Of a DNA stretch of 43,235 bases, positions 9,492 to 37,063 are shown in pieces (within the stretch, counting starts at the first letter, position 1; each line of letters opens with the position of its first letter). The stretch comes from a virus: positions 1 through 43,235 of IMG/VR virus record IMGVR_UViG_3300027782_000147, one strand, 5' to 3'. The notes under the pieces are model-generated. The model saw nothing but the letters and a program-made list of their open reading frames with translations, did not search any database and was not told where the DNA came from. A program made the position numbers and the translations under genes.

Positions 9492-9566
9492 TGGGGCCGC
9501 AGGTCGGACTTGAACCGACAACCTACAGTTTACAAAACTGTTGCACAACCATTGTGCTACTGTGGC
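9492..9566 (-). tRNA. tRNA-Thr (anticodon UGU)
   Basis: The cloverleaf is complete on the minus strand. The acceptor stem is GCCACAG/CTGCGGC with one A-C mismatch at the fourth pair, the D stem is GCAC/GTGC, the anticodon stem ACAGT/ACTGT encloses TTTGTAA (anticodon TGT, reads ACA), the variable loop is AGGTT and the T arm is GTCGG-TTCAAGT-CCGAC. The discriminator base is C and the CCA tail is encoded (9492-9494). Its 5' end overlaps the end of a 39-codon gene by 10 bases. Confidence 0.9.
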
Positions 9567-14891: not shown

Positions 14892-15036
14892 ATGCAGTGA
14901 AGATGTCGGGTCGATATAGACGCAACTTTTTCTCCTTACAGTCTTCGCAGACTTTGCAGAGAGGGATTCCGTATCCATCAGTTAGCCAATACCAATGCTT
15001 ATGGCTTTCGCAGGAGCACTGATTAGGATTGCTCAT
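14857..15036 (-). CDS. Small zinc-finger-like phage protein
   Basis: A 59-aa protein read from ATG at 15036, overlapping the stop of the 85-aa gene as ATGA. It has CSCE at residues 7-10 and CKVCEDCK at 27-34, so four or five cysteines are placed for one zinc site. It then has KKLRLYRPDIFTAYEAEEP and ends in PDE. The C-terminal RPDIF-Y-EPI pattern is familiar from small phage zinc proteins of unknown role. The gene is short but the motif makes it convincing. Confidence 0.7.
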   Translation of the reverse strand: MSNPNQCSCESHKHWYWLTDGYGIPLCKVCEDCKEKKLRLYRPDIFTAYEAEEPINPDE

Positions 15037-15290
15037 CGTTTAAGCCCGAAGTTTTTGCCGAGTGCATACTCGGCAGTCCTCACATACTCACCGCCAAGTT
15101 TGTTGGCGATGGTACGGAGTTCTTCGACTCGAAACTTTACATTGCTGTAAATGATATCGAGTTGCTTATCGCTGTGCTCGTTGCGAATAGGATGGTGGTC
15201 ATCGAGCCAAGTTGATTGGTGATTGAGCCACTTATCTTCCGCATCGAGGAACTCGCTTAAAGCACGATGGAATTCAGCATCAGTACTCAC
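15033..15290 (-). CDS. Hypothetical helical 85-aa protein
   Basis: Read from GTG at 15290 (GTGA overlap with the upstream stop). Helical, acidic in the N-terminal half (EFLDAEDKWLNHQSTWLDDHH) and basic at the C-terminus (YALGKNFGLKR). No recognised domain. It is chained by overlaps to the 135-aa gene before it and the 59-aa zinc protein after it. Confidence 0.55.
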   Translation of the reverse strand: MSTDAEFHRALSEFLDAEDKWLNHQSTWLDDHHPIRNEHSDKQLDIIYSNVKFRVEELRTIANKLGGEYVRTAEYALGKNFGLKR

Positions 15291-15694
15291 GAGCGGACTC
15301 CTTTCTTGATTGCATCAGAGAGAGCAGACCTAACGAATTCATTAACAGACATAGAGTTGCTCTTCGCAAACTCTCTGCACTGTGTGTAGAATTCAAAGTC
15401 TTTCTCAATCCAAGGGCTACCGCACCACATCACTTGTATGTGCGTAGGTCTTCCAAGCGATGTGGAGTGTGCTCGAAGTGCTCTCTGATAATTATGCAGT
15501 TTTGCTCGATTAGCATTTCTGTAATCGGCAGTATACTTAACCCTGCGAGAGAGTCGTTCCTGCATAATCAGTTTGCACTTATCGCACTCACACTTGCTAA
15601 CTCGGTGAACGATATCGCCATCAGTCCAATATCGCTTAGTGGGGTTAGCAACAACCGCTTCGTATGCCTGAGGGAACAACCTTTCGTGTTTCAC
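15287..15694 (-). CDS. Hypothetical protein with CxCxxC cluster and ribbon-helix-helix-like C-terminus
   Basis: This 135-aa protein starts with GTG at 15694, overlapping the gp88-type gene stop. Near residues 34-40 it has CECDKCK, a possible metal site, followed by a basic Tyr/Arg/Asn-rich helix (KYTADYRNANRAKLHNYQRALRA). The last 30 residues (SMSVNEFVRSALSDAIKK) read like the helix pair of a ribbon-helix-helix DNA-binding domain. A regulator is therefore plausible, at modest confidence. Confidence 0.5.
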   Translation of the reverse strand: MKHERLFPQAYEAVVANPTKRYWTDGDIVHRVSKCECDKCKLIMQERLSRRVKYTADYRNANRAKLHNYQRALRAHSTSLGRPTHIQVMWCGSPWIEKDFEFYTQCREFAKSNSMSVNEFVRSALSDAIKKGVRS

Positions 15695-17835: not shown

Positions 17836-18282
17836 ATGAATTTGCCTACAAGTCAATGTTGGTTAGTTATGCCCATCGAGCCGCCCAAGAGCACCCATCA
17901 GGCTAATTTGAGGGTTCTTAGGTCTAAAAGCGGCAAAATGTTTGTCGGAAAAATGAAAAACAACAAAGTATCCGCTTGGGTAGACCTTGCTAGGCCGTAT
18001 ATGGTGGCTGGGAAGCCCGATAAGCCCTGCGAAGGGCCAATCAGGGTCTACATTAGGCTTTACTATAGCCCCCCAAAGTACCTTTTACCAAAAATTAGCA
18101 AGTGTAAAACACTTGTAAAAACCACCAAACCAGATGTGGACAATGTTGTCAAGGTCATTCTGGATGAATTTACCAAAATCGGATACTGGCTTGACGATGC
18201 CCAAATCTGGAGCATACAGATTGAGAAGTACTGGAGCACGGAGCCATCTGTGCAAATGTACTACGACCAAAACAACCAATGA
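17836..18282 (+). CDS. rusA: RusA-like Holliday junction resolvase
   Basis: This 148-aa protein resolves four-way DNA junctions during replication and packaging. The catalytic acidic motif KPDVDNVVKVILDEF puts D100 and D102 in place, and YWLDDAQIWSIQIEKYW gives D120/D121, the RusA signature. The length fits. The start is ATG at 17836 (MNLPTSQCW); an upstream non-ATG start would run into the divergent HTH gene. It is the first gene of the plus-strand operon, only 16 bases from the divergent HTH start, so its promoter must lie inside that gene. Confidence 0.88.
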   Translation: MNLPTSQCWLVMPIEPPKSTHQANLRVLRSKSGKMFVGKMKNNKVSAWVDLARPYMVAGKPDKPCEGPIRVYIRLYYSPPKYLLPKISKCKTLVKTTKPDVDNVVKVILDEFTKIGYWLDDAQIWSIQIEKYWSTEPSVQMYYDQNNQ

Positions 18283-19061
18283 AAACAACGCTAGTCAGCA
18301 CTATGTCGGAGAGCGAATACCGCTCTCTTCCCGCCCTGAATGCTTCCCGCTTCAAGGCGTTCTTCCGCTCACCCTATCACTTCCGTAACCAGAAGGAGGT
18401 TGAGACAACCGAGGCTATGAGGATTGGCACTGCCATCCACACGGCTATGCTCCAGCCTGAGGATTACCTCAAGACTATTGCCTACTTCCCTGATGTGGAC
18501 GGACGCACCAAGGAGGGTAAGGCCATCAAGCAAGCCTTTGAGGAGGGTGCTATCGGCAAGACCATCCTGAAGGCTGACTCTGAGGCAGTAGTGCTTCGGG
18601 CCATCAAGGCTATCAATCAGAACTCTGACTGGCAGAGGATGGCGGCTCAGGTTTCTATCCGTAAAGAGTTAGTCCTGCTTGGCAAGTTGGCTGGCATCGA
18701 CTGTAAGGCTCGCCTCGATATCATTGATGTCGAAAACGGAATCATCAGGGACATCAAATCGTGTGACGATGTATCTGGAACTAAGTTTAAGTACACAGTG
18801 AAAGACAGGATGTACTGGGTACAGGCCGCTTTCTACTGTCTGCTGGCTGAAGAATGCTATGGCAAGCCGTTCAGTTTTGAGTTTATCGCTGTTGAAACCT
18901 CTGAGCCTAGCACTTGTGCTTTCTGGCAGGTTTCTCCTGAAGAACTGGTTAAGTGGAAGAATGCCGTTCTTTTGCGTCTGTTTGACTATGTGGATTGCAA
19001 TCATTCCGACTTCTGGGAAGGCCCACAGGGTGGAATTCTTGAAGACTTAAACATCGTATGA
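18279..19061 (+). CDS. RecE-like PD-(D/E)XK exonuclease
   Basis: This 260-aa protein is the nuclease partner of a phage recombination pair. It belongs to the RecE/exonuclease VIII-like family: GTAIHTAML with H54, ARLDIID with D147, IIRDIKS with D158 and K160, and YWVQAAFYC with Q182 are all in order and spacing. It degrades one DNA strand to expose tails for the ERF annealing protein encoded 1.6 kb downstream. It starts with ATG at 18279 (ATGA overlap with rusA) and overlaps the initiator gene the same way. Confidence 0.88.
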   Translation: MKTTLVSTMSESEYRSLPALNASRFKAFFRSPYHFRNQKEVETTEAMRIGTAIHTAMLQPEDYLKTIAYFPDVDGRTKEGKAIKQAFEEGAIGKTILKADSEAVVLRAIKAINQNSDWQRMAAQVSIRKELVLLGKLAGIDCKARLDIIDVENGIIRDIKSCDDVSGTKFKYTVKDRMYWVQAAFYCLLAEECYGKPFSFEFIAVETSEPSTCAFWQVSPEELVKWKNAVLLRLFDYVDCNHSDFWEGPQGGILEDLNIV

Positions 19062-19687
19062 GTAAGCCATCATTTACTGGTGTCTGGATTCCTGTAGAGG
19101 TCTTCCAGATGGAAACCCTTACCATCACCGAGAAGGTGGTGTACGGAATCGTAAACGCCCTCGACAATGAAGAAGGCTGTTTCGCCTCCAATGGCTACCT
19201 TGCACAGACCCTGCAACTGAGCGACAGACAGGTCAAGAATGTCCTCAAAACGCTTATCGACTACCAGTTGGTAGTCCGCATCGAAGTGAACGGCAAACGC
19301 ATCCTACGGACAGTGGAGAAGCAAGCCTTGGTGGGTGCTACAGATTTCCTAGGGAGGGGGAAACCTATTTCCCGCAGGGGGGGAAGTAGACTTCCTACAG
19401 ATAGAACAGTAGATAAAAAAGAGGATAAACCTACCCTAACCCTTCCTTACGGAGACGCATTCAAAGTGTCTTGGCACAAATGGAAAGATTATCGAAAGCA
19501 AATCAAGAAGCCTTTGTCTGAGATGACGCAACAAGAGCAGTTGACAATGCTTGGCTCTTGGGCAAACGAAACAAACGCAATTGATTCAATCAACAAAAGC
19601 ATTGCTTTCGGCTGGCAGGGTCTTTTTGTAGTAACTGCCAACAAAACCAAAACGCTAACCAACAACGACCACGCCAATGGCTTCTAA
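19058..19687 (+). CDS. Winged-helix replication initiator (replisome organiser type)
   Basis: This 209-aa protein has an N-terminal helix-turn-helix (about residues 20-75: LTITEKVVYGIVNALDNEEG, then NGYLAQTLQLSDRQVKNVLKTLI), a Gly/Arg-rich linker (near residues 95-125) and a helical C-terminal part (WHKWKDYRKQIKKPLSEMTQ). This organisation and the position directly before a DnaC-like loader fit phage initiators such as lambda O or the DnaD-type organisers of Firmicutes phages, which bind repeats inside their own gene. The linker is encoded by a G-rich repeat stretch (19341-19400), which is the likely origin. The start is the ATGA overlap at 19058. Confidence 0.8.
   Translation: MSKPSFTGVWIPVEVFQMETLTITEKVVYGIVNALDNEEGCFASNGYLAQTLQLSDRQVKNVLKTLIDYQLVVRIEVNGKRILRTVEKQALVGATDFLGRGKPISRRGGSRLPTDRTVDKKEDKPTLTLPYGDAFKVSWHKWKDYRKQIKKPLSEMTQQEQLTMLGSWANETNAIDSINKSIAFGWQGLFVVTANKTKTLTNNDHANGF
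19341..19400 (+). repeat. G-rich initiator-gene repeat block, candidate origin
   Basis: Within the initiator gene, TTTCC units alternate with runs of 5-7 G; CAGATTTCCTAGGG at 19341-19354 is an exact inverted copy of 10422-10435. The following 47 bases match the intergenic block at 10424-10470 (inverted) with only small gaps. Repeats inside an initiator gene are a classic place for a phage origin. Confidence 0.7.
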
Positions 19688-20363
19688 GTGCATTCACTGT
19701 AAGGCTGACGCAGTCCCTGTCTGGGACTCAACAAGTCAAAAGTTTAAACCGTTTATCGCAGTGTGCCTTGACTGCTTCCCTCACAAGGAACATCACGAGT
19801 ATCCGTACTACTACAAGGATGTCTTCAACAAGCACAACTGGTGCTTCAAGTCGATGCATCCTTCCACTCCTCTGGCGTTCCACGATACCATCGAAAGCAA
19901 ACTTGCACAGCAGATGCAGGTGGCGTTGCAGGAGTACACACCAGAGCAGAGCGTCCTGCTTCACGGTGTCACTGGCACAGGCAAGACACGGTGTGCGTGG
20001 GCGATGTACAACAAGGCGTGGCTACACTTCTACCCGAAGCATAGCATCTTCCTGACGATGCGTAAACTGGAGTCTGAAATCGAGAAGGGCTTTGCCAACC
20101 AGAACCACGGTGATGTCATCGAGCGTCTGACTTCTTGCTCCCTGCTGGTCATTGACGATTTAGGAAAAGAACGCTTGACCCAACGAATGGAGAGCGATTT
20201 ATTCTCTATCATTGACGAGCGAACATCCAATAAACGCCCGACCATTATCACAACCAACTACAACGGAAGCGGACTATCCGACAGATTCTCAAACGGAGAG
20301 ACAGGCTCTGCAATCATTCGCAGACTTAAGGACTACTTCCGAATCTACGGAGCCGCTCAGTAA
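19677..20363 (+). CDS. DnaC-like helicase loader (AAA+ ATPase)
   Basis: This 228-aa protein would load the host replicative helicase onto the origin, working with the initiator encoded just before it (overlap of 11 bases). N-terminal cysteines C5, C8, C30 and C33 suggest a zinc ribbon, unusual enough to be a partner-binding tag. Walker A is GVTGTGKT at 97-104, Walker B is LLVIDD at 156-161, sensor 1 is TTN at 192-194 and the arginine finger pair lies in IIRRL near 215-216. The length is close to E. coli DnaC. No phage helicase or primase was found, consistent with host replisome recruitment. Confidence 0.88.
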   Translation: MASKCIHCKADAVPVWDSTSQKFKPFIAVCLDCFPHKEHHEYPYYYKDVFNKHNWCFKSMHPSTPLAFHDTIESKLAQQMQVALQEYTPEQSVLLHGVTGTGKTRCAWAMYNKAWLHFYPKHSIFLTMRKLESEIEKGFANQNHGDVIERLTSCSLLVIDDLGKERLTQRMESDLFSIIDERTSNKRPTIITTNYNGSGLSDRFSNGETGSAIIRRLKDYFRIYGAAQ

Positions 20364-20379
20364 TTTCCCACCCAAACAT

Positions 20380-20595
20380 ATGGAAACCCAAAATACCGAA
20401 ACGGCCTCTATCATTGAGGTCAATAACGCACGGAAGTACATCGTACTCCCAGATGGTCGAATGGCACGATTGCTGAAGCCTGTAAAGGTTAAGCACTACC
20501 TGTACTATTCGTTCATCAACGACCAAGGCAATGCTGTTCGAATCAATGCATCCAATAGCCGAAAGGTTAACGATGAAGTGGTTAGCAAGAAGTAA
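20380..20595 (+). CDS. Hypothetical 71-aa protein between loader and ERF genes
   Basis: Read from ATG at 20380 (METQNTETASIIEVNNARKY). The sequence predicts a small beta-rich fold (KYIVLPDGRMARLLKPVKVKH then YYSFINDQGNAVRI) and a basic end. No family is recognised. It lies 16 bases after the loader stop and 22 bases before the ERF start, so it is part of the replication transcript. Confidence 0.6.
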   Translation: METQNTETASIIEVNNARKYIVLPDGRMARLLKPVKVKHYLYYSFINDQGNAVRINASNSRKVNDEVVSKK

Positions 20596-20617: not shown

Positions 20618-21343
20618 ATGCAAAACGATACGCTACCTAAGCCAAACCTGTCTGAGTTGTACATCGCCCTAGGCAATGTGCATTCTGAGACGAAAGACAT
20701 TGTTGCGGATGATTTTAATCCGCATTTTAAATCGAAATTCGCCAGCCTATCGGCTCACTTGTCTTATCTTAAGCCCCTGTTCCACAAGCACGGTCTTACG
20801 GTGATTCAACTGCCGACCTCCGAGTTCCACGACAATGGCATTGGCATTAAGACCATTATTGCCCACAAGAACGGCACGAGCATCGAATCCTCCTGCATCG
20901 TTCCTGTAGGTGAACAGGCTACTGGTCAACAGGCTGGTGCTATCCTGACCTACCTGAGACGCTATTGTCTGGCTTCCATCGGGGGTCTGGCTACCACGGA
21001 TGATGACTGTGAAGCAGACCGAGTGGTTAAGACTTCCTCCGCTCCTGTGGCTGTAAAGAAGTCGGCTCCTATTGCTACCTTTGTTGCACCCCACACTGGT
21101 AGCGTTGGAATCGATTTCGAACTCGCTGTTCCGTTCGGCAAGAACAAGGGTACTTCTCTGTCTGCCCTTCCTGATAGCGACCTCGACTACTGGGCTAACA
21201 AGTGGGAGCCTAAGCCGTGGGAAAAGACTGGTAAGGTCGGTGCTAAAGACCAGTCCCTCAAGAAATCTGCACAGGCTCTCTGGGCTTTGAAGCAGAATGG
21301 TGTAGACTCTGAACCCGAATCCCAAGACGAAGTTCCGTTCTAA
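20618..21343 (+). CDS. erf: ERF-family single-strand annealing protein with extra C-terminal domain
   Basis: This 241-aa protein (start ATG 20618; an ATG at 20573 overlapping the previous gene is an alternative) anneals complementary single strands made by the RecE-like nuclease. The ERF signature is GAILTYLRRYCLASIGGL with DDD following, residues 107-130. After a Pro/Ala linker (about 135-165), residues 168-225 (AVPFGKNKGTSLSALPDSDLDYWANKW) resemble a DUF3820-type domain. The protein ends in ESQDEVPF, an acidic tip like that of SSB proteins, suggesting it recruits the same partners. ERF core is confident, the two additions less so. Confidence 0.85.
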   Translation: MQNDTLPKPNLSELYIALGNVHSETKDIVADDFNPHFKSKFASLSAHLSYLKPLFHKHGLTVIQLPTSEFHDNGIGIKTIIAHKNGTSIESSCIVPVGEQATGQQAGAILTYLRRYCLASIGGLATTDDDCEADRVVKTSSAPVAVKKSAPIATFVAPHTGSVGIDFELAVPFGKNKGTSLSALPDSDLDYWANKWEPKPWEKTGKVGAKDQSLKKSAQALWALKQNGVDSEPESQDEVPF

Positions 21344-21350
21344 CCAATCT

Positions 21351-21422
21351 GTCCCTGTAGTTCAATGGATAGAACATTCGCCTTCTAAGCGAATTATCTA
21401 GGTTCGATTCCTAGCAGGGACA
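21351..21422 (+). tRNA. tRNA-Arg (anticodon UCU)
   Basis: All arms pair. The acceptor stem is GTCCCTG/CAGGGAC, the D stem GTTC/GAAC, the anticodon stem TTCGC/GCGAA with loop CTTCTAA (anticodon TCT, reads AGA), and the T stem CTAGG/CCTAG with TTCGATT. The 3' CCA is not encoded. It sits between erf and the lysozyme-like gene in the plus operon. Confidence 0.93.
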
Positions 21423-21431
21423 TTTTACCAA

Positions 21432-22175: not shown

Positions 22176-22311
22176 GCAGATGGTTCAAGCGATGCTGTAT
22201 CTTACCAACGAGGTCGCTGACCTAAGGTACAAACTTTTACAGCACGAAACCGATAAACCTCAGGAGCCTGAAAAACCCTTATGTCCCAAAAAAACAAAAG
22301 CAAAAAAATAA
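22150..22311 (+). CDS. Small charged coiled-coil protein, 53 aa
   Basis: Read from ATG at 22150. The first 35 residues form an amphipathic helix (QMVQAMLYLTNEVADLRYKL), the rest is Lys/Pro/Glu-rich and ends in KTKAKK. It overlaps the metallophosphoesterase start by 31 bases, so translation of the two genes may be coupled. No family is recognised. Confidence 0.45.
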   Translation: MTPKTVKYEQMVQAMLYLTNEVADLRYKLLQHETDKPQEPEKPLCPKKTKAKK

Positions 22312-23036
22312 AGTTCGTTGCCGTTGGTGATAACCACGGAGATATGGTGGATACCGAAGCCGCAAAACAACTGTTTGATTTCATTCAGGATTACCAGCCT
22401 GACGAGGTAATTCACTTGGGAGACTGCTTTGATTTTCGCAGTCTCAGGTCTGGAGCCAGTGGCAAAGAAGAAGCCGAATCCTTGCACGATGATGTCGAAG
22501 CGGGATTACAATTCATCAACGAACTTAAACCTACAGTTTTTCACTATGGAAACCACGAAGACCGAATTAGCCACTTCATTCACTCATCGACTAATGGAAT
22601 CGTTAAGGACTTTTGCCAAGACCTTGATGATGAGATTGTCTCCAATCTTAAGAAGGTTGGGTGTAGAAAAATCTACCCCTATCACGCTGAGGAGGGGGTT
22701 CACACCTTGGGTCTTGTCCGAACAGTACACGGCTACACTTGTGGAATCAGAGCAGTTGAAGAACACGCAATCCACTACGGACTTGAGGAAGGGGCAGTGC
22801 TTATGGGACACATCCATTCCATTCAGCAGACTAATGCAAAGCGATACCGAGGTACTGTTGGTTTTTCGGGAGGGTGTCTCTGTAAGAAGCGTGAGATGCG
22901 TTATGCGAAAAATCGACTGGCAACTTCTAAGTGGGGTACTGGATGGATGTACGGATTTGTACACAATAAAAACTGGAAGGTTTGGCAAGCACATCGAGTC
23001 GGAGAAAAGTTCATCTTCAGCCACCACCAAGAATGA
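22281..23036 (+). CDS. Calcineurin-like metallophosphoesterase
   Basis: This 251-aa protein has all five metal-binding motifs of the family in order: VGDNHGD (D17, H19), GDCFDF (D48), GNHE (N91, H92), VHG (H150) and GHIH (H177, H179). It would hydrolyse phosphoesters with two divalent metals. Phage members may act as nucleic-acid or nucleotide phosphatases, or be a counter to host phosphate-based defence; the substrate cannot be read from the sequence. It overlaps the gene before and, as ATGA, the HTH gene after it. Confidence 0.85.
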   Translation: MSQKNKSKKIKFVAVGDNHGDMVDTEAAKQLFDFIQDYQPDEVIHLGDCFDFRSLRSGASGKEEAESLHDDVEAGLQFINELKPTVFHYGNHEDRISHFIHSSTNGIVKDFCQDLDDEIVSNLKKVGCRKIYPYHAEEGVHTLGLVRTVHGYTCGIRAVEEHAIHYGLEEGAVLMGHIHSIQQTNAKRYRGTVGFSGGCLCKKREMRYAKNRLATSKWGTGWMYGFVHNKNWKVWQAHRVGEKFIFSHHQE

Positions 23037-26230: not shown

Positions 26231-26531
26231 ATTGTTGGGCTTTTTGTAAAAATTTAGTACGCACCCAGTTAAATAATTCTGGGGCAATAGAACCTGAAAT
26301 TGAACATAGTACACTCTTATAGAATGGGTCAATAGAAGTTTGATGTAGGGCAAAATAGCAAATTACCCCCACAATAGCCCCTGCCATAATCATCCTGAAC
26401 CAGCGGGTCGTGTTATACTTCTCGTCAGTCAGGATAAGCCTAGCCAGCATACCCGCCCCTCCAAGAATGGCAAACAGCCACCCTGTCTTCTTGAACTCGT
26501 CAAGAAGGTCTTGGAGTGTGGGGTCGCTCAT
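26220..26531 (-). CDS. Holin (LydA-type, three membrane segments)
   Basis: This 103-aa protein has three hydrophobic stretches (residues about 17-33 LFAILGGAGMLARL, 47-62 MIMAGAIVGVICYFAL, 74-90 VLCSISGSIAPELFNW), a charged N-terminal helix and a basic C-terminus. Size and topology fit holin superfamily III, LydA type, which form lesions in the inner membrane that release or activate the muralytic enzyme. It is directly downstream of the giant virion gene (ATGA overlap) and upstream of the glycine-rich gene pair and the spanin candidate, so it belongs to a split lysis set. Confidence 0.75.
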   Translation of the reverse strand: MSDPTLQDLLDEFKKTGWLFAILGGAGMLARLILTDEKYNTTRWFRMIMAGAIVGVICYFALHQTSIDPFYKSVLCSISGSIAPELFNWVRTKFLQKAQQYGD

Positions 26532-29500
26532 CGTTTAGTTCTCTCCTCTCTGAGGACAGCGTCAACCGCCTCCTGTTCTCTGCGGAACTGGCCTACATAG
26601 CCAGATGCAGGATTAAACAACCTGAACACGGAGATACCTTTCTCGTCTCTCAGACGCACCATAAGGTAGTTTAGTTTGTTTCTGATGGTAGCCCACTCAC
26701 TATACACTTCTCCAGCCTTGGAGGGCAGTCTGGATTCGATTCTCCAACTAGAGGCATCAGCGACAGCCTGTGTTTCAGGAGCAGTAGGCTTATTGTCAGC
26801 GGTATTGACGGCGGCTTGAACATTTTCAGCACCAGCAGTAGTATCAGTAGGAACTTCAGGAGCCTCGGCTTTAGGCTTAAGTTCCCAGACTGTATGACCG
26901 CTGGAGTTTATGAATCTAGTGTGCGTTTCGTTAAGTGCTCCTTCCCTTGTCGGAGTAATCAAAACAAAATCGGTATCAACACTTCCGTTGTCCCTGACAA
27001 ATTGAACATACTGATTCTCACCATAGTTTTCACCATTGTAACTGAGTTCCGAAAGGATGTTACGCATTTCTTCAGAGTAGTGGGGAGAACCCTTATTCTG
27101 TTCGTACAATTTAAGGACTGTTTCAGAAAATTGAGGGGCGTATTTAAGCGACTTAAGAATACCGCCTGTTTTATCGGCTGGCATTGGTACATTGCCAACC
27201 TTCCAAGGCGTGTTGCCCTGACCTCCAGTAACTTGATTGGCGGCAATACGAACTCCCTTGATGTCATCTTCGTAGAATCTGACAAGAACCTGAGCCTGAG
27301 TTACATTCTCAACAATGCCCATTTGAACAGTCGGAATCTCAAGAACCTGAACACCATCAGCATTCTTAACCTTTTCTCCAGCAAAGAACACTTCATAGTG
27401 GTCATCGCCATTACGCTTAATGATGTATCTGCCATCATTGGATTCACGGAACGAGCCAGACTCTGGCTTGCTCCAATCCAAATTTGAGAACGCAAGGCCA
27501 TCATTGAGCGACAGCAGGTGGTGGAGAGCAAACTGTCTATCGGTAATGAACGCAGACACGCCCTGTTTCTTAAATTTCTGAATAGAGGACTCAACCGCAA
27601 GTGTTGTGGACAGAAGTTTTTCAACTCTGGCATACTCGTAGTCAGCGTTTTTGGAAAAATCACCTCCGTGCTCTACCTTATCCATCTGTTCAGGGAACCA
27701 CATAGGCTTGTTGGCTCTACGCTCGTGTGCTTCCTTTTGGTACTGTGCCATACCCTGCCTGTTCTCAAGCATCAGTTTGTTAACAGTACTAGTCTGAAGG
27801 TTCATACGATAGAACAAAGGCATTTCTTCGTACTTCTTTTTAATGTATGTCTGACCACCGCTATCAAACATAGAACTAGTAGACTCAGTATGCAGTTCCT
27901 GCTCCCAGATGGCTTTGAATCCATCCATCTTAACAAGGCTGTCGATAGGCATACCAAAGTGTTCGCCCTGACCTGTAAGGAAAGGCTGACGCTTATTTCC
28001 TTTAAGCATAGGCTTGTCCTTTCCAGTTGCAGTCACTTCTCCTGTCTTCCAGTTGTAAGGATTTGTAGTGCTACTAGGTTTAACAAATGCAAGACCATTG
28101 GAATCACGAATCAAATACATTGCATTCTCGATAACTTCCTTGTCTCTCAGAGCCAACTCAACCTGTTCAGGGGTTCTGGAGTTTCTGAATGATTCAAACT
28201 CAACATCGTTAAGACCTCTGAGTTTCTTGAACGCTTCAATTCTTACGGACGGAGAGCCTAGGATTGTTTGAAGAGCCTCGTAGGCATAAGAGCGAATGAA
28301 TCGCTCACGCTCCGTAGAACTCTTGAACTTATCTCTGATGCCAGCAGACAGTTCCATCTGTCTTTCAAGTTTGTCTGGAGCAATCTTGGCGGTCTTGTCC
28401 AAAAACAGAGGGTCTTTCTGTATTTCTGGGTGGAACAACTGAAGTAGCAGTGCGTGTTCAGCCGTAAGACTGGCATCAGGATTATTCTCGTGATAAGACT
28501 TAATCTGTTCGGCTCTGTACATATAGTCGGCAAGGTAAATGCTTCTTGCGGACAATCTCTTACGCTCGTTTGAGGCGACTTCGTTTTCTGTGCTACCTCT
28601 AAGGCTACGGAATGTTTCACCAATTGCAGACTCACCTGCGTGAGGGCCATAGGTGTCGGTGGTTACAGACCAGTCAAAAGAATGGATAGGCCCAAAGAAA
28701 TCCCAAGACAGCGAGGGGAACATAAAGAACCATCTCTGTGTTTCAGGGTGGGCTGGGTCGATTCTTCTCTCAATGTCACCAAGGCCAAGTTGATTGGCTC
28801 TGTCCCTGTATTTTTCAAACAGTATGTCTGCTTCTGCCTGTGCTTCGGCTCTCCACTGTTGCATCTGGGTTGCATTTTGTTTCTCGTTTTCAAGAACTCT
28901 TTCTCTAACTTTCTGTGCAATCTTACGCTCTGCAACGATGCGTTTAAACTCTTCAGTGTGAGCATCAGGAAGTGCGTTGGGGTCTTCAACGGAATCAATG
29001 GCGTTTTGGATTCTCTTCTCAAGAGCAAGACGCTTTGCTTCAAGTTTGCGTACAATAGATACAATCTCCTGTGCTCTCTTGGACTTTTCAATGCCTTCAA
29101 TCTTGTCAACAGAAGTGAGGTTAAGGCTTCCATCAGGAAGTCTAAACTGAGTTCCAAAAGCCTGACTGATGTTGGTAAGACTGTCTAACTCCGTGAAGTG
29201 TTCGGCAAGCGACCTGTTTGTTTCTCTGAGTCTTGCTTCAGAACCCTTTAAGATTCTTCCATAAGTTCCAAGAGTCTCAAGGTCATACTTTTCTTCGATG
29301 GCTCTAACGGCTTCGTCTTTGTCGTAATAATTATCCTTGAACTTCTGCATTACGCTTTCAACAAATGCCTGATTTTCAGGCTGTTGCATCCAAGTGATTA
29401 CTTTTGCTTCACTGAATTTACCAAGTTTCTTCAGCCTATCAATTTCCTTGCTGTACTTTTTCTCAGTATTTACATCGGCATTGATGTGCTCAAAGCCCAT

Positions 29501-32500
29501 ATCAAGGACTCCCTGAAGGGCCAGAGAGTCCTTGTTGGTTGCAGTGTGCCATCTGTCTCTGATGTATGTGATGCCTTCTTCAAACGCTTTCTTGTACTGC
29601 TCCTTTGAAACAAAGGTCTTAGAGCCGTCACCAAGAACACCGAACTCGTCTGGCATATATGAGGGCTTAGTCTTAGGGTGAAGACCAAGTTTCTTCAGCG
29701 ACTGTACATTGAAATTGGTGTTTCCAACTCCAAGTTTAGAAGACTCTGTTCCATCCAAGTATTCTTGCTCGGTAATTTCACGCACAAACTTATCGCTAAG
29801 TTTATGACCCTTGGCGGCGGCATACTGTTTGGCTAGAAATTCAATCTGGTATTCGGCTCTTTCCTTAATCTGGCTATTGCCGTCAATGAGTCCACGGATT
29901 TCATCGTAGGTTCTTCTGAACTCCACTTGCTTCTGCTTGGACTGTGCAATCTGTGCTCTGATTCTCTGTACAAAAGCCAACTTAGATTCAGTCGGGTCTT
30001 GAGCCATCAGGTGCTGGTCGGCCTTTCCGTCTTCCTTGAGATAAGAATACTCGGTCATCCAAGCATCCTTCTCGGCAAGGGACATCAGTTCCATCCGTTC
30101 AAGTGCGTTGTAGTGTCTAAGTTGATGCTCAAGGACAAGCACCTTGTCTCCGTGATATCTTGTACCCTTCTGAGCGGCATCCAAATCCCTCTCAATAGTC
30201 TTGATTGTATCAAGAGCGGTAAGAGGGGGCTGTTTGTTACGCTTCTGTTCTACATTAAGTTCCTGTGTACGCTTAGTGATGTATCGTTTCCACTTGGATT
30301 CTCCGTCACGGACTTCTGTTTCAAGAGCCTTAATCTTTGCGATGTTTCCATTGGGGCCATCGGAAAGAATCGTATCAATAAGTTTCTGCTCTGCTCTTGT
30401 TCTGGCTTTAATTCTTTGCTCAAAGTCTTTGTAAAGACCTTCAAGGTAGTTTTCAAATCCAACATTAGGAGACTGACCAGACTTAAGTTCCTGAAGAGCC
30501 TTTGTTCTCTTTTGAATTGTATTGATTCCCTGAGCGTCAGGGGGGAACACAAAGTTATACTTTCCATCAATCTGAAAGATGGTTCCTGTGTCAGAGTACT
30601 GAATGTTCTGAAGTTTTGTTAACTGCTCACGGAGGTGTACAGTTTCTGCAAGGTCAAGCGGCCTCTTCTTTCCAGTGTCTTCGTAAACAATCTTCGTAAC
30701 AGTCTCATACACAGGCTTTCCCTTACCATAACCACCTTTAACATTCTTAATCTGTTTAACCTTCTTTTCTTTTCTGACAGTAATAGGAGCACCTTCGGCA
30801 AGAATTTTTTTGAGAGTTTCAATCTCAGCCTTAACTGTTGTTGTTTTTCCAGAAGGGCCAAAGCGTGTTCTTCCAGAATCAACGCTTCTTCCATTATTAT
30901 CTAGGGTCATCTCAGGAAGAATCTTAAATCCAGCCCACGCTCCATTCTTATTCAGTACGGACTGAACATCAGTGCCTTCATCAATACGCTGAATAGCAAC
31001 ATATGTATCGCCCTTTGAACGCAGTTCCCAGTTATCAAAGTTGTCTGGAATCTTCTCACCTTTTTCATCAAGAAGGCTTCTAAGAATAAAGTCTTTCTTT
31101 GGGCCTTCTACTTCATAGTGTCCAGAGAACAGTCCAAGTTTAGTTGCAGAATCATTTACACGCTTTGTGGCCTGTCTAAGAAAATTCTTTCTGGCCTTAT
31201 CAACATTGCTATCGCTTCCTTCCTTCAGGAATCTGTCAGAAAGAATAATATTTCCTTTGTTGTCGTACATTTCAATGTACTTCCATTTCATCGATTCAGC
31301 AGTAGACAGTTCTTTATGATTAGGAAGACGCTCAATTACAGTATAGTCTGAACCTTCAAGTCTCCATAGATGAGTACCAACAACATAGTTGTCTTTACCC
31401 TCAAAAAGTTTACCTGCGTGGCTTTGAATTGCCCAATTAGAACCATAGTATCCTTTTTCTTCAAGACCCTTAAGAGCCTCAACATACTGCTCGACTATAG
31501 TACGCTGAATATCAAATACCTTTCCGTGTGTTTGCTCGCTGTAAAGTGCATACAATTCAACAGAACGCTTGATTGCATCTGGTGTCCCAAGTTGAAGAAG
31601 ACCCTTAGAGGATTCATCATAAAGGTGAGCACGAACCCATTCAATTACATTAGCATCACTTCCATTGATGTTGTAGGCAGTAAGGATATCATCCAGTCTG
31701 GAACTTGATTCCTGTGTCCAAAGATTGTCAATCTTGTGCTGAAATTCCTGAAGTCTTGCGTGAGCAATTTCAGACTCCCTGTCAAAGAATGTATCACTAA
31801 TTACTCCCTTAGGATTAACAGGTTGTGTTCTTTGGTAATTGTTAAGTTCATTAAGTGCAAGGTATTGTGCTCCAGTAAGGTTGTCTTTTCTTAGTGACTC
31901 AACGACAAGCGTTCTGGTTTTTTCAACAAACAGTTCCTTAAGTTTCTTGTAATTGATAGGAGAGTAATCGATGCCATCGTTTACCTTGTTTCTCATAACC
32001 TGTTTATCAACAAGCATCAAAAGACTTTGATGTCTCTTATCGATTGCATCAAAGAAACCAGACCATCCTCCGTGCTGAGCAAAAATATGTTCATTGATTA
32101 GGGTAAACATATTTCTTCCCTCCTCAGTTTTCATAAACTTCAGTTCTGATTCTTTACCACCACGCATAACCTCCATCCACTTAGGGTACATCTGCATTGC
32201 CTTATACTCCACTTCCGTCATTTCAGCGGCGTGAGCAAGCATAGGAACCCCAGATTCAAGAAGTGTTCTTGCATTGATTCCATACTTATAGGATTGCTCA
32301 AGGAACAGGCTTCCGTTCATAATGGCGTTGCCTACACTAGTAAGGTTATATCCTCTCAAGGACATTTCGGCAACCTTATCCAAGATAGCATTCGGGGCGA
32401 ACTTAAACTTCTCTCTGAGTTTTGCCTTAACAAACGGAAGCAAAGCCTGAACTCCACGCTCGTGCATTTCTTCTGGAGTTAAATCTAGTTTCTTTAGGTT

Positions 32501-35500
32501 ATCTACAGTCCTCTGAATGCGAACCTTTTCTTCCTCAATGATTCTGTGGATATCCTTTTCAGAAATCTTTCGTGTATTAGGAACAACATTTCCATTCTTA
32601 TCTACAACATAATCAAGGAATGCTCTGCTGTATCCTTTTTGCTTAAGAACCTTTTCAAACTTTTCGTGAACGCTTTTTGCAGGAGAGAAACTAAATTTCT
32701 CAGTCATTGACTGCTTGCTTACATTTTCAATAAACCGCTTGTTATCATACACAGCAACGGCAGAGTATTCATTTCCATTCAACTCATTCAGGGCAAGATA
32801 CTCAACAGAATGAATTCCTAGGTTGTTAAAGAAATCGATATTGTCTCTTGTGAACAGCCAGTTATCCATACTGTTGCCTTCAGTATGAAGGATATTTTCT
32901 GGTTCTCTAGAATACAGTTCTCTAAATGTAGTGCCTTCTTCGTCTCTAAGTTTAAGGATGTCATTAAGAACTTGTTCAACATTCTTAGATGTAATCTGAG
33001 AAACACGCTCAGCCACAGTATTGATTGCCGTCTTATAGTCAGCGTTATGGGGAATCTGACTGACATCTAGGTGACTCTGTGTGTCAATGTATCCAGTAAC
33101 AAGACGCTTATCGGCAACAATGCCAGCCTCGTATCCGTCAGGTGTATAGTGATTCCACCCGCTTTGCGTGGAATACTGAGAGCCTCTGAGGGTAGGAATA
33201 GCAATGTCAAACATACGACCAAGACCATCATCGACAAAGTCATAGACAGAAGGCTCAGTCGTAATCTTGTATCTTTCAGCGTTAGCCTTTCTTAGGTCAT
33301 AAACAGCAAGCACTTCTCCATCTTTGTTTCTGTATACAGTGTTCTTAAGGATACGCTCAGCACTCGCAGGAATAAATACGCCCTCGTGGTCACGACCACC
33401 CTTTGCAGGAGAGAAGTTAAACTGAGAGCGGACATAGGCATTGTCGTGGTCGTATCTGAAACCTTCACCATCAAGAGCACGGAGCGTACCAATACGGCTG
33501 ATGTTAAAATCAGTCATAACAGTAGGAATAGATACTTTCTTATCTGTGTTTCTTCTCTGGAACTTGAGAGGATAATTTCCTTCGGAGCGGTCAATCATCT
33601 TCATACCACCCTGAAGCATTTCCTTGGTCGGATGAAATCCAATCACAGCGTTAACAATGTCACGCATATGTGCGGCCTCACGAATGGATGTCGTATTGCT
33701 CTGGAACATCTTAGCACCAGCCTCGGCTTTTTCTCCGTTGCTGTAATTGCTCAGCAAAGCCTTTGCGGCTTCCACAAGATTTTCCTTAGTTCCAAACAGT
33801 CTTCTTACCATCTTGTAATCAACGCCCTTCTCGTCTAACTTGTTCCAAGAGTGGTCAACTCTTGTCATAAAGGCATCCATATCGATAGCCTTAACAAGTA
33901 ACTGGGCATCACCCATTTTGTACTTCTGAATGCCAGCATCGTTGACTTCGCCTACTTTCTTTCTCTGGAAATACAGGTTAATTTCAACAGGGATAAATGT
34001 GCTATGTCTAGTCTTGAATCCACGCTCTCTAGCACCGCTTTCTTTTTCTCTGCTCTTTGTGAGAATAGGAGCCTGTAGGGTGTTGCTGATAGAGCCAAGC
34101 ATACCCTGTCTGGAGCGTTCAATGACAGTATTAAGTTGAGCAAAACGCTTAACAGTATTCTCAGGAAGATACTTAGCCAGAACCTTTAGTTCATAGTCAG
34201 TAGCCTTTCCTGTAATCTTAATTCTAGGATTACCCTGCCAGTTGCTTTTCCAGAATCCCTCATCGTCCTTCTCCATCTTGTCGTAGCCGACATTGTCCTC
34301 GACATCGACTTCCTGAACTTCGCCTTTCTTGCCTCTTAGGTTCTTAATGTCTGCTTGTTCAAGCGTGGAATCTACTTCCTCATTAAACACCTGCTTCATC
34401 TTCTTTCTGACTGTGGCCCAATGGTCATCGTCAGATTTAGATGTCGGCATTGCAACAGTCTCTTCCTTATCAAAATGTGTGATTCTCTTGTCCTTAGGAA
34501 CAGTCTTCTTCTTCTTTGGCTTTGCAGGAGAGAAGGTGTACTCAGGGGTAGGCGAGTTGCCTTGATGGAATGCAAATGTAAGACCACGCTTATCTGAAGG
34601 AGCCTTAGATAGTTCGTCAACAATGCCAAACAAAGCCTTTGTCTGAGAACCAGCCAACACTTCGTCAGAAAGAATCTCGGCCTTAGTGCCACCTTCCTTA
34701 TTAAACAAGTGCTCAAGTTCGCTGGCAAAAGCAACACCAGTGTCAGAATGGACAACAGGGTTCTTCTTCCAGCCCTTATATCTGTCGCCGCCAACTTCCT
34801 TAACATAGTGACGCATCAGTTTATCAAGCATCGGAATTCTAATTCTCTGCTTGGTGTTCTGCTCGATGAAGAAATTGTCAGGGTTAGTACCCCACTTAAA
34901 GTTAGCACCAGCGGAAGTAAGGTCTTTGTACATAATGTCCCTGTACACATCTTTGCCCCACTCAATGCTGTTTCTAATCAGGCCAAGGTCACCTCCATTA
35001 AGTAGGTAATCAATTGGCTTCTCTTCGATAAATCTATTCCAGTAAGATGTCAGGAACTCTTCATACGCAGTTCTAAGCGTAGTAGGCTTTTCACCTCTCT
35101 TAAGTTGCTCAATAGAATGATTAAAGTCCTGATGGATTGCCTCCATAGCCGCAGGATTTGTGTCCTTAAGAGAGCCTTCAAGTTTTAGGTAAGAATCTCT
35201 GAACGCTTCAACAAGCCTGACAGCCTCATCCTTAGGCATTCTGTAAAGAGCACCAGCACTGTCTTCAGTTCCAATCAAAGCCTCAACAGCCGCCTTCTTA
35301 AAAGGCTGTGCGTATCTGTCGTTAAGCAAAACTGTGTGGAGCAGTTCTTCGCTAAGTGCAGACTTAGCGGCCCTATCAACATTGATGATAGTTACATTTT
35401 CTCCGTTAACAGTATGGTGAAATGACACACCACCAAAGTTAGGGTCATTAAGAAGTTCCGTATACCTAGCCCATTCAGGACTAAGGGCCATCTTCTTGAT

Positions 35501-37063
35501 TCGTTTCTCGGTCAGGTACAGCCTACGCTCATTACGCTGAAGTCTTTCAGCCGCACCAACCTGAGCCATCGTAGACAACTTAGCCTTAGTGCCTCCATCT
35601 CTTTCGACAATCTGAAGCAGTCTAGCAAGACCTTCCTGATTGTGGTATTCAAAATGTTGGGTAGCCCAAAGGAAATTCTTTACAACATCCTGAACCGCAT
35701 TGCCGCCAGACACTGCTCCGTGGGCAACACCAATCTGGTGGAATGCACCACCAAGCACAAAGCCAGTACCAAGGCCGTTGTAGAAGCCGTCTTCACCACC
35801 CATAACAAGGCCAAACGCACCACCATACATAGCCGAATGTAGAGAGGTTTTAGCAGTAGCAGTACCCCATTCAAGCATTGGAGAGCCAGTAACAGACCAA
35901 GTTCTGGCAAGATTTGCTACAACAGGATTAGCAGATTCAGCCGCAATACGCTCAGAAATCTTGAGGCCAGCAATCTTTGATTCCTGACTAGCAAGTTCAA
36001 ATCCAAGTTCAGCAGTCTTAGCCGCAACTTCAGTCATCTTAGCCGCACCCCAAGTAAGCGTAGTAAAACCCCAAGCAGGGATTCTAAGATTATTAGCACC
36101 AACTCCTTCAGCCGCACCACGCACAAGGTTATCCTTATACATAGCCTGACCACCACCCTTAATACTGGCATCAATTCCTGTCAGATTCTTGAAAGACTCT
36201 ACCAACTTCTCTTCAGTTCTTTCAACAAGTCCAGCAAGAGCACCAGCCTTTTCTCCTATTTTACCAGCAAGAGTAGACGCTTTCTTTGTCGAAAATACAC
36301 TGGCTTTAGTAAGTTGCTCGTTCAACTGAAGGATGCCAGCCGCACCACGCATACCCTTGGCAATAGTAGCCTCGATGCCAAGTTCAGGCAAAAGCCAAGA
36401 AGGGTCAGCAACATACGAAATAGCCTGAACAACCGCAGGGTTAGTCAGGTCAATATCCATACCGCCAATGTTAATCTGATGAGGAACAATGATGCCATCA
36501 CGCTCATCGTTTGCAATCATCTTATTTGTCTCAATAGACTGCTTTAGATTCCAGTAATATTCTTGGTCAGAAGAATGAGAATCATACAGCATCTTGTGAA
36601 GCCAAGAGTCTTCATCGTACTTGGCTTGCTCATACATATACATCCAGTTCTTTGTGCCAAGAGCCGCACCTTCAACAACAGAACCAAGTACCTTTGGAAC
36701 CTTAAGCGTAGCAACATCCTTAGTCAGTTCCCAAGCACCATTGGCAAGCGTACTAGCAGTATGTTCCATTGCACCAGAGATGCTATCCCAAGCACTTACT
36801 TCCTGCTTTGCTCTCCAAGCCCTAAGAGCCATTGCCTCATCAAATGTAGGCACATATCCGTGTGCCTGATACCTAGCCATCATTTCAGCAACATATTGAC
36901 CCTTCTCATCTGGGGTCATCTCATCCTTGATAGCCGCTGTAGCAGGGCCGTCTAGAGGTTGATTGATATCAGCAATATCTTCCTCATTAGGAGTCTTAAC
37001 ATTTCCACTGCGAACAGCACTGTTATATGCTTCTTCGCTAGAGTATACAATTTCTTTAGGCAT
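26528..37063 (-). CDS. Giant internal virion protein (T7 gp16-like position), possible polyvalent protein
   Basis: One uninterrupted 3511-aa frame fills 24 percent of the genome and follows the gp14-like and gp15-like core proteins, so it is the gp16-type ejection protein by position. The N-terminal 450 residues end in a glycine-rich hydrophobic stretch (about 405-450: YGGAFGLVMGGEDGF). Residues 565-680 look like an inactivated zincin, EELLH at 572-576 where HExxH would stand. FSPAK occurs three times, at 844-848, 1217-1221 and 1459-1463, encoded by one identical 14-base string each time. The segment 1217-1458 has VYRNKDGEVLAVYD and AVAVYDNKRF framing, as in polyvalent-protein effector domains. 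About 2100-2700 is highly charged coiled coil. No RNA polymerase motif was found. Confidence 0.75.
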   Translation of the reverse strand: MPKEIVYSSEEAYNSAVRSGNVKTPNEEDIADINQPLDGPATAAIKDEMTPDEKGQYVAEMMARYQAHGYVPTFDEAMALRAWRAKQEVSAWDSISGAMEHTASTLANGAWELTKDVATLKVPKVLGSVVEGAALGTKNWMYMYEQAKYDEDSWLHKMLYDSHSSDQEYYWNLKQSIETNKMIANDERDGIIVPHQINIGGMDIDLTNPAVVQAISYVADPSWLLPELGIEATIAKGMRGAAGILQLNEQLTKASVFSTKKASTLAGKIGEKAGALAGLVERTEEKLVESFKNLTGIDASIKGGGQAMYKDNLVRGAAEGVGANNLRIPAWGFTTLTWGAAKMTEVAAKTAELGFELASQESKIAGLKISERIAAESANPVVANLARTWSVTGSPMLEWGTATAKTSLHSAMYGGAFGLVMGGEDGFYNGLGTGFVLGGAFHQIGVAHGAVSGGNAVQDVVKNFLWATQHFEYHNQEGLARLLQIVERDGGTKAKLSTMAQVGAAERLQRNERRLYLTEKRIKKMALSPEWARYTELLNDPNFGGVSFHHTVNGENVTIINVDRAAKSALSEELLHTVLLNDRYAQPFKKAAVEALIGTEDSAGALYRMPKDEAVRLVEAFRDSYLKLEGSLKDTNPAAMEAIHQDFNHSIEQLKRGEKPTTLRTAYEEFLTSYWNRFIEEKPIDYLLNGGDLGLIRNSIEWGKDVYRDIMYKDLTSAGANFKWGTNPDNFFIEQNTKQRIRIPMLDKLMRHYVKEVGGDRYKGWKKNPVVHSDTGVAFASELEHLFNKEGGTKAEILSDEVLAGSQTKALFGIVDELSKAPSDKRGLTFAFHQGNSPTPEYTFSPAKPKKKKTVPKDKRITHFDKEETVAMPTSKSDDDHWATVRKKMKQVFNEEVDSTLEQADIKNLRGKKGEVQEVDVEDNVGYDKMEKDDEGFWKSNWQGNPRIKITGKATDYELKVLAKYLPENTVKRFAQLNTVIERSRQGMLGSISNTLQAPILTKSREKESGARERGFKTRHSTFIPVEINLYFQRKKVGEVNDAGIQKYKMGDAQLLVKAIDMDAFMTRVDHSWNKLDEKGVDYKMVRRLFGTKENLVEAAKALLSNYSNGEKAEAGAKMFQSNTTSIREAAHMRDIVNAVIGFHPTKEMLQGGMKMIDRSEGNYPLKFQRRNTDKKVSIPTVMTDFNISRIGTLRALDGEGFRYDHDNAYVRSQFNFSPAKGGRDHEGVFIPASAERILKNTVYRNKDGEVLAVYDLRKANAERYKITTEPSVYDFVDDGLGRMFDIAIPTLRGSQYSTQSGWNHYTPDGYEAGIVADKRLVTGYIDTQSHLDVSQIPHNADYKTAINTVAERVSQITSKNVEQVLNDILKLRDEEGTTFRELYSREPENILHTEGNSMDNWLFTRDNIDFFNNLGIHSVEYLALNELNGNEYSAVAVYDNKRFIENVSKQSMTEKFSFSPAKSVHEKFEKVLKQKGYSRAFLDYVVDKNGNVVPNTRKISEKDIHRIIEEEKVRIQRTVDNLKKLDLTPEEMHERGVQALLPFVKAKLREKFKFAPNAILDKVAEMSLRGYNLTSVGNAIMNGSLFLEQSYKYGINARTLLESGVPMLAHAAEMTEVEYKAMQMYPKWMEVMRGGKESELKFMKTEEGRNMFTLINEHIFAQHGGWSGFFDAIDKRHQSLLMLVDKQVMRNKVNDGIDYSPINYKKLKELFVEKTRTLVVESLRKDNLTGAQYLALNELNNYQRTQPVNPKGVISDTFFDRESEIAHARLQEFQHKIDNLWTQESSSRLDDILTAYNINGSDANVIEWVRAHLYDESSKGLLQLGTPDAIKRSVELYALYSEQTHGKVFDIQRTIVEQYVEALKGLEEKGYYGSNWAIQSHAGKLFEGKDNYVVGTHLWRLEGSDYTVIERLPNHKELSTAESMKWKYIEMYDNKGNIILSDRFLKEGSDSNVDKARKNFLRQATKRVNDSATKLGLFSGHYEVEGPKKDFILRSLLDEKGEKIPDNFDNWELRSKGDTYVAIQRIDEGTDVQSVLNKNGAWAGFKILPEMTLDNNGRSVDSGRTRFGPSGKTTTVKAEIETLKKILAEGAPITVRKEKKVKQIKNVKGGYGKGKPVYETVTKIVYEDTGKKRPLDLAETVHLREQLTKLQNIQYSDTGTIFQIDGKYNFVFPPDAQGINTIQKRTKALQELKSGQSPNVGFENYLEGLYKDFEQRIKARTRAEQKLIDTILSDGPNGNIAKIKALETEVRDGESKWKRYITKRTQELNVEQKRNKQPPLTALDTIKTIERDLDAAQKGTRYHGDKVLVLEHQLRHYNALERMELMSLAEKDAWMTEYSYLKEDGKADQHLMAQDPTESKLAFVQRIRAQIAQSKQKQVEFRRTYDEIRGLIDGNSQIKERAEYQIEFLAKQYAAAKGHKLSDKFVREITEQEYLDGTESSKLGVGNTNFNVQSLKKLGLHPKTKPSYMPDEFGVLGDGSKTFVSKEQYKKAFEEGITYIRDRWHTATNKDSLALQGVLDMGFEHINADVNTEKKYSKEIDRLKKLGKFSEAKVITWMQQPENQAFVESVMQKFKDNYYDKDEAVRAIEEKYDLETLGTYGRILKGSEARLRETNRSLAEHFTELDSLTNISQAFGTQFRLPDGSLNLTSVDKIEGIEKSKRAQEIVSIVRKLEAKRLALEKRIQNAIDSVEDPNALPDAHTEEFKRIVAERKIAQKVRERVLENEKQNATQMQQWRAEAQAEADILFEKYRDRANQLGLGDIERRIDPAHPETQRWFFMFPSLSWDFFGPIHSFDWSVTTDTYGPHAGESAIGETFRSLRGSTENEVASNERKRLSARSIYLADYMYRAEQIKSYHENNPDASLTAEHALLLQLFHPEIQKDPLFLDKTAKIAPDKLERQMELSAGIRDKFKSSTERERFIRSYAYEALQTILGSPSVRIEAFKKLRGLNDVEFESFRNSRTPEQVELALRDKEVIENAMYLIRDSNGLAFVKPSSTTNPYNWKTGEVTATGKDKPMLKGNKRQPFLTGQGEHFGMPIDSLVKMDGFKAIWEQELHTESTSSMFDSGGQTYIKKKYEEMPLFYRMNLQTSTVNKLMLENRQGMAQYQKEAHERRANKPMWFPEQMDKVEHGGDFSKNADYEYARVEKLLSTTLAVESSIQKFKKQGVSAFITDRQFALHHLLSLNDGLAFSNLDWSKPESGSFRESNDGRYIIKRNGDDHYEVFFAGEKVKNADGVQVLEIPTVQMGIVENVTQAQVLVRFYEDDIKGVRIAANQVTGGQGNTPWKVGNVPMPADKTGGILKSLKYAPQFSETVLKLYEQNKGSPHYSEEMRNILSELSYNGENYGENQYVQFVRDNGSVDTDFVLITPTREGALNETHTRFINSSGHTVWELKPKAEAPEVPTDTTAGAENVQAAVNTADNKPTAPETQAVADASSWRIESRLPSKAGEVYSEWATIRNKLNYLMVRLRDEKGISVFRLFNPASGYVGQFRREQEAVDAVLREERTKR
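32676..32689 (-). repeat. FSPAK codon repeat, copy 3
   Basis: The coding-strand string TTCTCTCCTGCAAA encodes FSPAK at residues 1459-1463 of the giant virion protein. Three exact copies share the same bases (also 33402-33415 and 34521-34534). Confidence 0.9.
33402..33415 (-). repeat. FSPAK codon repeat, copy 2
   Basis: The same 14-base string as at 32676-32689, here encoding residues 1217-1221, preceded by SQFN and followed by GGRDHEG. The codons for all five residues are identical, although each could vary silently. Confidence 0.9.
34521..34534 (-). repeat. FSPAK codon repeat, copy 1
   Basis: The same 14-base string as the other two copies, encoding residues 844-848, with PEYT before and PKKKK after it. 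Confidence 0.9.

Follow-up and report, generated by a model that had tools for sequence, protein, structure and literature searches.

Organization of the ERF Gene and Its Neighbourhood

The stretch of DNA analysed here (the window) is an IMG/VR virus record of 43,235 bases, which carries an ERF-type gene at positions 20618–21343 of the plus strand. Its translation has no internal stops, comprises 241 aa, contains VPFGKNKGTSLSALPDSDL and presents ESQDEVPF at the C-terminus, encoded by the codons at 21317–21340 and followed by the stop codon at 21341–21343. A longer ORF starting at 20531 would be possible for this gene, and the start at 20618 was favoured because the N-termini of its relatives are conserved (MQDDT, MEDTT). 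The features of the gene and of the cluster preceding it are the following:

17842–18282, plus strand: RusA-like Holliday junction resolvase (phrog_140, E 2.6e-26), in the same operon-like cluster
18279–19061, plus strand: ExoVIII-like exonuclease, a candidate phage partner (phrog_412, E 9.1e-45)
19058–19687, plus strand: O-like replication initiation protein (phrog_678, E 3.6e-15)
19677–20363, plus strand: DnaC-like helicase loader (phrog_50, E 8.8e-29)
20618–21343, plus strand: whole gene, consisting of ERF, linker, DUF3820/ExoX-C-like module and SSB-like tip (241 aa plus stop)
20660–21037, plus strand: ERF annealing core, aa 15–140 (PF04404, phrog_2324, fold match to Gp77 9y6u/RAD52)
21002–21106, plus strand: disordered linker, aa 129–163 (pLDDT under 50; hypervariable and gapped in the A1 alignment)
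21122–21301, plus strand: folded module, aa 169–228 (VPFGKNKG...YWANKWEPKPWEKTGKVGAKD...LKKSAQALW), from profiles and a model of the module alone
21317–21340, plus strand: SSB-like acidic tip ESQDEVPF, aa 234–241, conserved in relatives and disordered in the model (aa 229–241, pLDDT under 50)

The ERF gene is placed downstream of the RusA-like, ExoVIII-like, O-like and DnaC-like genes, in this order, and the presence of the DnaC-like and the other upstream genes ahead of ERF suggests that the phage loads a host helicase. Among the 40 other window ORFs scanned against PHROGs, which make up part of the window's ORFs, neither a DNA polymerase nor an SSB was found. A single ORF at 26528–37063 of the minus strand, which takes up a quarter of the record, encodes a product of 3511 aa. 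Two tRNA genes were also observed, a tRNA-Arg (anticodon tct) at 21350–21423 of the plus strand, starting 7 bases beyond the ERF stop codon, and a tRNA-Thr (tgt) at 9492–9566 of the minus strand. On the 3′ side of the annealing gene, a metallo-phosphoesterase gene (phrog_221) is found at 22281–23036 of the plus strand, and such a gene also lies downstream in 50/59 ERF and 15/21 Rad52 loci related to that of the window.

The Annealing Core and the C-Terminal Module

The ERF core that the original prediction had assigned to this gene was borne out by PF04404, which matched the window protein with an E value of 3.1e-15 and 56.9 bits, above the curated cut-off of 25, and phrog_2324 was matched with an E value of 2.5e-27. 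The AlphaFold2 model of the full protein presented an ERF/Rad52-like fold up to about residue 122, disorder at 129–163, a folded C-terminal module and again disorder at 229–241. A Foldseek search with this model, which is of moderate quality (pLDDT 71), revealed a Rad52-like annealing fold, the best match being Gp77 (9y6u; E 3.4e-5), which we take to be an ERF-type protein, followed in the ranking by RAD52 entries (E 0.009–0.1). Judged by its sequence, the window protein is a putative ssDNA annealing protein of ERF type.

When modelled alone, the C-terminal module reached a mean pLDDT of 85.9, with helices at aa 186–195 and 209–228. The fold search of this module against the PDB returned nothing credible (best E only 4.6), and the sequence search against the PDB gave no credible match. 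The same prediction had described it as DUF3820-like, a label that stood by way of relatives and not by the window protein alone, whose match to PF12843 (QSregVF_b) remained below the cut-off of 22 (14.3 bits, E 0.037), so that the module is here named DUF3820-like rather than a member of the family. The relative L207 exceeded this cut-off (24.9 bits, E 1.9e-5), and the comparison of its module variant with that of the window by hhalign gave an E value of 1.5e-19. Like PF12843, the window module presents the signature PFGK-x-KG, with L and LP after it; unlike DUF3820/QSregVF_b, modules of the window type have extra conserved YWANKWEPKPWEKTGKV positions. Three sequence variants of the module were recognized, A (that of the window), B and C, and their profiles, with the tip included, were related with E values of 1.5e-19 (A versus C) and 1.2e-27 (A versus B), while identity between the most distant members was as low as 27–30%.

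When two module profiles were run against 84,980 genomes of bacteria and archaea, no relative was confirmed, and variants A and C had no match in the named phage collection. Only the divergent modules of loci L349 and L348 matched there, hitting the C-terminus of proteins annotated as exonucleases (ExoX-like), and hypothetical proteins. In the one such exonuclease that was read, that of PaMx11, the module is present, the chain ends just past it and the tip is absent, which indicates that module and tip are separable. A third kind of protein with a DUF3820-like module and no tip (phrog_19042) is encoded at 3377–4171 of L348, adjoining an exonuclease gene, and may represent another class of annealing proteins. 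Our literature search yielded no study of what DUF3820 (QSregVF) does.

Conservation of the Acidic Tip

The scan with the whole window protein yielded 49 viral loci, and in all 49 of their proteins the C-terminus is an acidic stretch closed by P-F or P-Y. Moreover, three scans were performed with module profiles in which the tip was outside the search patterns, yielding 59, 46 and 80 loci. These were pooled with the Rad52 loci described below and eight distant ERF loci, amounting to 222 proteins, which were reduced at 93% identity within each core class to a non-redundant set of 99 (67 ERF, 31 Rad52 and 1 other), all from viral contigs; besides the near-copies more than 93% identical within one core class, the fragments lacking the N-terminal domain (L093, L347, L395 and L425, all ending in PF) were dropped. 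In this set, the P-F/Y terminus was present in 98/99 module proteins, while D or E at position –5 and P at position –2 were present in all 99. The entropy was 0.41, 0 and 0.41 bits at positions –1, –2 and –5, respectively, versus 2.8–3.6 bits at positions –6 to –12, and the consensus of the tip was D-[DE]-[VI]-P-[FY], with V at position –3 in 72 of the 99 proteins. Proline and valine were each specified in the tip by all four of their codons, indicating that the constraint acts on the protein level. The weakest tips among the relatives were EQDPY, EDGPF, EEEPY and ESNPF, and the sole exception was the L348 protein, which ends in DGLPE and carries another N-terminal domain (phrog_19042). In two proteins the tip was doubled (DDVPFDTNPF in L362 and DDVPFDDKPF in L379).

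Several controls were used to evaluate these frequencies. Among the remaining ORFs of 90 aa or more on the relatives' loci, the P-F/Y end was found in 2/1348, both with a near-terminal acidic residue, and among 45 selected ORFs of the window it was found only in the ERF protein. A tip occurring at chance frequency is ruled out by these ORF controls. As for ERF proteins devoid of the module, a scan led by the ERF of phage Pq0 gave 78 complete ones, of which one had the tip. Similarly, a scan restricted to the ERF core (residues 1–140, module and tip left out) gave 80 loci, three of them already included in the Pq0-led scan; the tip was present in all 14 module-bearing loci, and among the loci without the module only L209 (EDNVPY) fitted the motif, L218 (NIPF) being close. 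The tip was also considered as a general property of ERF proteins, which was rejected on the basis of the single case among the 78 module-less proteins and of L209 being the only one outside the 14 module loci.

Thus acidic residues and a Pro-aromatic end are found behind a variable disordered linker, as in an SSB-type tip, and the prediction of such a tip after the ERF core and the module was upheld by ESQDEVPF and by 98/99 relatives. That prediction had been made to depend on conservation in close homologs, which was verified in the 49/49 loci as well as in the non-redundant set.

Exchange of the Module and Tip between Annealing Cores

The same module and tip were found behind a different annealing core, Rad52_Rad22 (PF04098), in L048 (E 1.3e-14) and L049. 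The scan with the Rad52 core only yielded 35 loci, 34 of which include the C-terminus, and module and tip were present in 34/34. The sharing of a module and tip unit by ERF and Rad52-type proteins goes beyond what had been claimed in the original prediction. In fact, each of the variants A, B and C is present on both ERF and Rad52 cores, and the module tree (98 rows, 77 columns, long branches flagged) needed three ERF/Rad52 changes, three being forced by the starred branches.

Pairwise identities were compared for those proteins in which the start motif of the core was found (21/31 Rad52 and 55/67 ERF). Among the 151 pairs with Rad52 cores at least 75% identical, the modules were under 50% identical in 62; for example, the cores of L309 and L358 have an identity of 0.89 and their modules of 0.41. 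Conversely, among the 311 pairs with ERF cores under 50% identical, the modules were at least 65% identical in 82. This discordance indicates that core and module recombine, with the break presumably placed in the linker, and the tip is carried along with the module from one core to another. Moreover, O-like and DnaC-like genes precede the annealing gene in most loci of both core types (counts given below), ERF was absent from 11/11 Rad52-bearing records and Rad52 was absent from 30/30 ERF-bearing records, which indicates that the annealing core has been replaced in its gene slot with the cassette retained.

SSB Genes in Relatives and Named Phages

No match to PF00436 was found in the window at E values up to 10, and no OB-fold SSB domain was recognized in the window protein, so that its tip is SSB-like and the protein itself is no SSB. 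Among 43 module records of at least 40 kb, none had PF00436 over the cut-off, one presenting a sub-threshold stretch with a stop, and neither PF10991 nor PF05037 was found in these 43 records and the window (44 in all), these being profile searches that could miss a more divergent SSB. The PF00436 SSB was thus present in 0/44 module records versus 5/22 records with a tipless ERF (Fisher p 0.003). Since 17 of these 22 are also devoid of it, SSB absence alone does not explain the tip; moreover, the L349 record has an SSB gene and its ERF is nevertheless tip-bearing, indicating that the tip is not merely an SSB substitute. For both reasons, the tip as a simple marker of SSB loss was not upheld.

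Among the named phages read, a tipless ERF or recombinase was found together with an SSB that is separate from it and bears the motif at its end in Klebsiella phage KMI8, Escherichia phage KW1E, Pseudoalteromonas phages Pq0 and BS5, and Streptococcus phage Javan645. The SSB of Vibrio phage BT-1011 presents the motif followed by an extension, and the SSB-like neighbour of ERF in LP.2 ends in PDW. A tipless ERF was also observed in A500, Bongo, PP, Acinetobacter and Riemerella phages, elemoA and Barc2635. Among annotated terminases, that of Phage C75C1 is the nearest (30% identity); in this phage (L435), a core-only ERF of 144 residues adjoins an annotated SSB of 72 aa ending in KEEAPF, an arrangement at 14907–15559 that is a split version of ERF plus tip. 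In Firmicutes phages, erf adjoins ssb in almost 80% of cases (PMC8093625).

Proposed Role of the Tip

The nine-residue tip of E. coli SSB is the site through which more than 17 partners are recruited, its final Pro-Phe filling a pocket in RecO (PMC7913777). We propose, giving it an even chance, that the window protein is an annealing protein whose module-linker-tip cassette presents the docking code normally found on SSB. The ERF core would coat and anneal the ssDNA produced by the ExoVIII-like nuclease, and the tips, being flexibly tethered, would reach host proteins at the pockets that bind the SSB tip, the candidate proteins being PriA, RecO, RecQ, exonuclease I, DnaG and the clamp-loader chi subunit; the annealed DNA would then be handed to the host restart and replication machinery with no phage SSB involved. 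The docking of the tip, the host identity of its partners and the hand-over are inferred. This reading is favoured by the frequency of P-F/Y ends in module proteins versus other ORFs (98/99 versus 2/1348), by the likeness to DDDIPF, by the disorder of the tip in the model, by the exchange of the cassette between cores, by the lack of a recognisable SSB gene and by the tips on separate SSBs of other phages. Against it stand the predominance of V at position –3 (72/99) versus the I, L and M of the SSB tips read here, the coexistence of SSB gene and tip in L349 and the 17/22 tipless-ERF records without PF00436 SSB, and also the conserved ExoVIII-like, O-like and DnaC-like neighbours, which are equally possible partners. 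More tentatively, and at somewhat below an even chance, a portable host-docking cassette may travel between ERF and Rad52 cores, the SSB code having moved onto the annealer and turned it into an SSB-like recruitment hub.

These neighbours give weight to another explanation, in which the tip docks a phage-encoded partner from the same cluster, namely the exonuclease (ExoVIII-like), the initiator (O-like) or the loader (DnaC-like). Among the non-redundant loci that extend far enough upstream, an O-like gene precedes the annealing gene in 37/38 ERF and 20/21 Rad52 loci, a DnaC-like gene in 37/38 and 16/21, and an ExoVIII-like gene in 28/38 and 11/21, the loci being possibly cut there. We regard a phage partner as unlikely, since L349 retains the tip in another gene context, with a phrog_69 exonuclease and no match to the O-like and DnaC-like window genes, the motif corresponds to the general SSB code and not to one specific to the lineage, and the folded module would be a more natural dock for a nuclease.

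The acidic character of the tip and its flexible tethering in the model would also suit self-regulation, in which it would fold back onto the basic surface by which the core binds DNA and, as a competitor of ssDNA, restrict binding until annealing takes place; SSB tails can inhibit DNA binding (PMC9917605). A near-invariant Pro plus aromatic end would not be needed for charge alone, and the identical type of tip is found on two annealing cores of different families, which makes self-regulation decidedly unlikely. The tip might also be a decoy that blocks host SSB-dependent nucleases or repair proteins, shielding the phage DNA ends. Competition for the same pockets would be expected of the motif, and phages do protect DNA ends with other genes, for instance one annotated as Mu Gam-like next to the ERF of A500; however, in a fusion to an annealing protein the tip is located on DNA and is not free in the cell, and we consider a decoy improbable. 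Finally, that the tip is a functionless by-product of common ancestry is disfavoured as highly improbable, for although a single broad group of phages, or phages recombining with it, is the source of all the sequences, the linker next to the tip is hypervariable in both length and sequence, synonymous changes are tolerated in the tip and the module itself diverges to 27–30% identity between its most distant members.

The proposed SSB-type docking is relevant to the question of how strand annealing could be linked to the replication machinery of the host in phages that have neither an SSB nor a polymerase of their own. RecT and Sak4 have been described as reading the host SSB tip, and the annealing protein described here would wear the tip. 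If this is true, it would compete with host SSB for the same pockets, and the docking cassette could be useful for recombineering of laboratory strains; the natural ERF/Rad52 swaps with the cassette kept are ready-made experiments.

Comparison with Known Systems

The literature searched, mostly that outside subscription papers, showed neither an SSB-like tip on an ERF or Rad52 protein nor a module-tip cassette capable of exchange; the parts are of known kinds, and their combination and exchange between cores look new. The window core belongs with the ERF superfamily (PF04404, phrog_2324/155), whose curated cut-off it exceeds, and unlike it the named-phage ERFs that were read (KMI8, Pq0, LP.2, A500, Bongo, BS5 and others) carry neither module nor tip. 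As for the Rad52_Rad22 phage proteins (PF04098, phrog_1097), relatives in the same slot share the cassette, the window core itself being an ERF. The T7 gp2.5 protein is an annealing-capable ssDNA-binding OB-fold SSB with an acidic tail ending in Phe; unlike it, the window protein is of ERF type and has an extra module.

The likeness to E. coli SSB (MDFDDDIPF) lies in the disordered linker, the acidic stretch and the Pro-Phe at the extreme C-terminus, where the window tip matches DDDIPF, and, as in bacterial SSB tips, the Asp at –5 and the Pro-Phe at –2/–1 are nearly invariant. Unlike in bacterial SSBs, the tip is borne by an ERF/Rad52-type annealing protein and not by an OB-fold SSB, a folded module is placed between the linker of the core and the tip, and position –3 is mostly Val, the SSB tips read here having I, L or M.

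The C-terminal domain of lambda Red-beta is described as a bundle of three helices, which binds lambda exonuclease and perhaps SSB as well (PMC9512822). The window protein similarly has a C-terminal domain, a candidate interaction domain, behind its annealing core; unlike that of Red-beta, its module has no PDB fold match, and the protein carries an SSB tip instead of reading it. RecT proteins are reported to rely on an SSB tip (PMC10711431), and the HK620 pair of Sak4 and SSB to require the last six residues of the SSB, NDYPPF (PMC5928155). The tip in HK620 is thus located on a separate SSB, whereas in the window it is located on the annealing protein.
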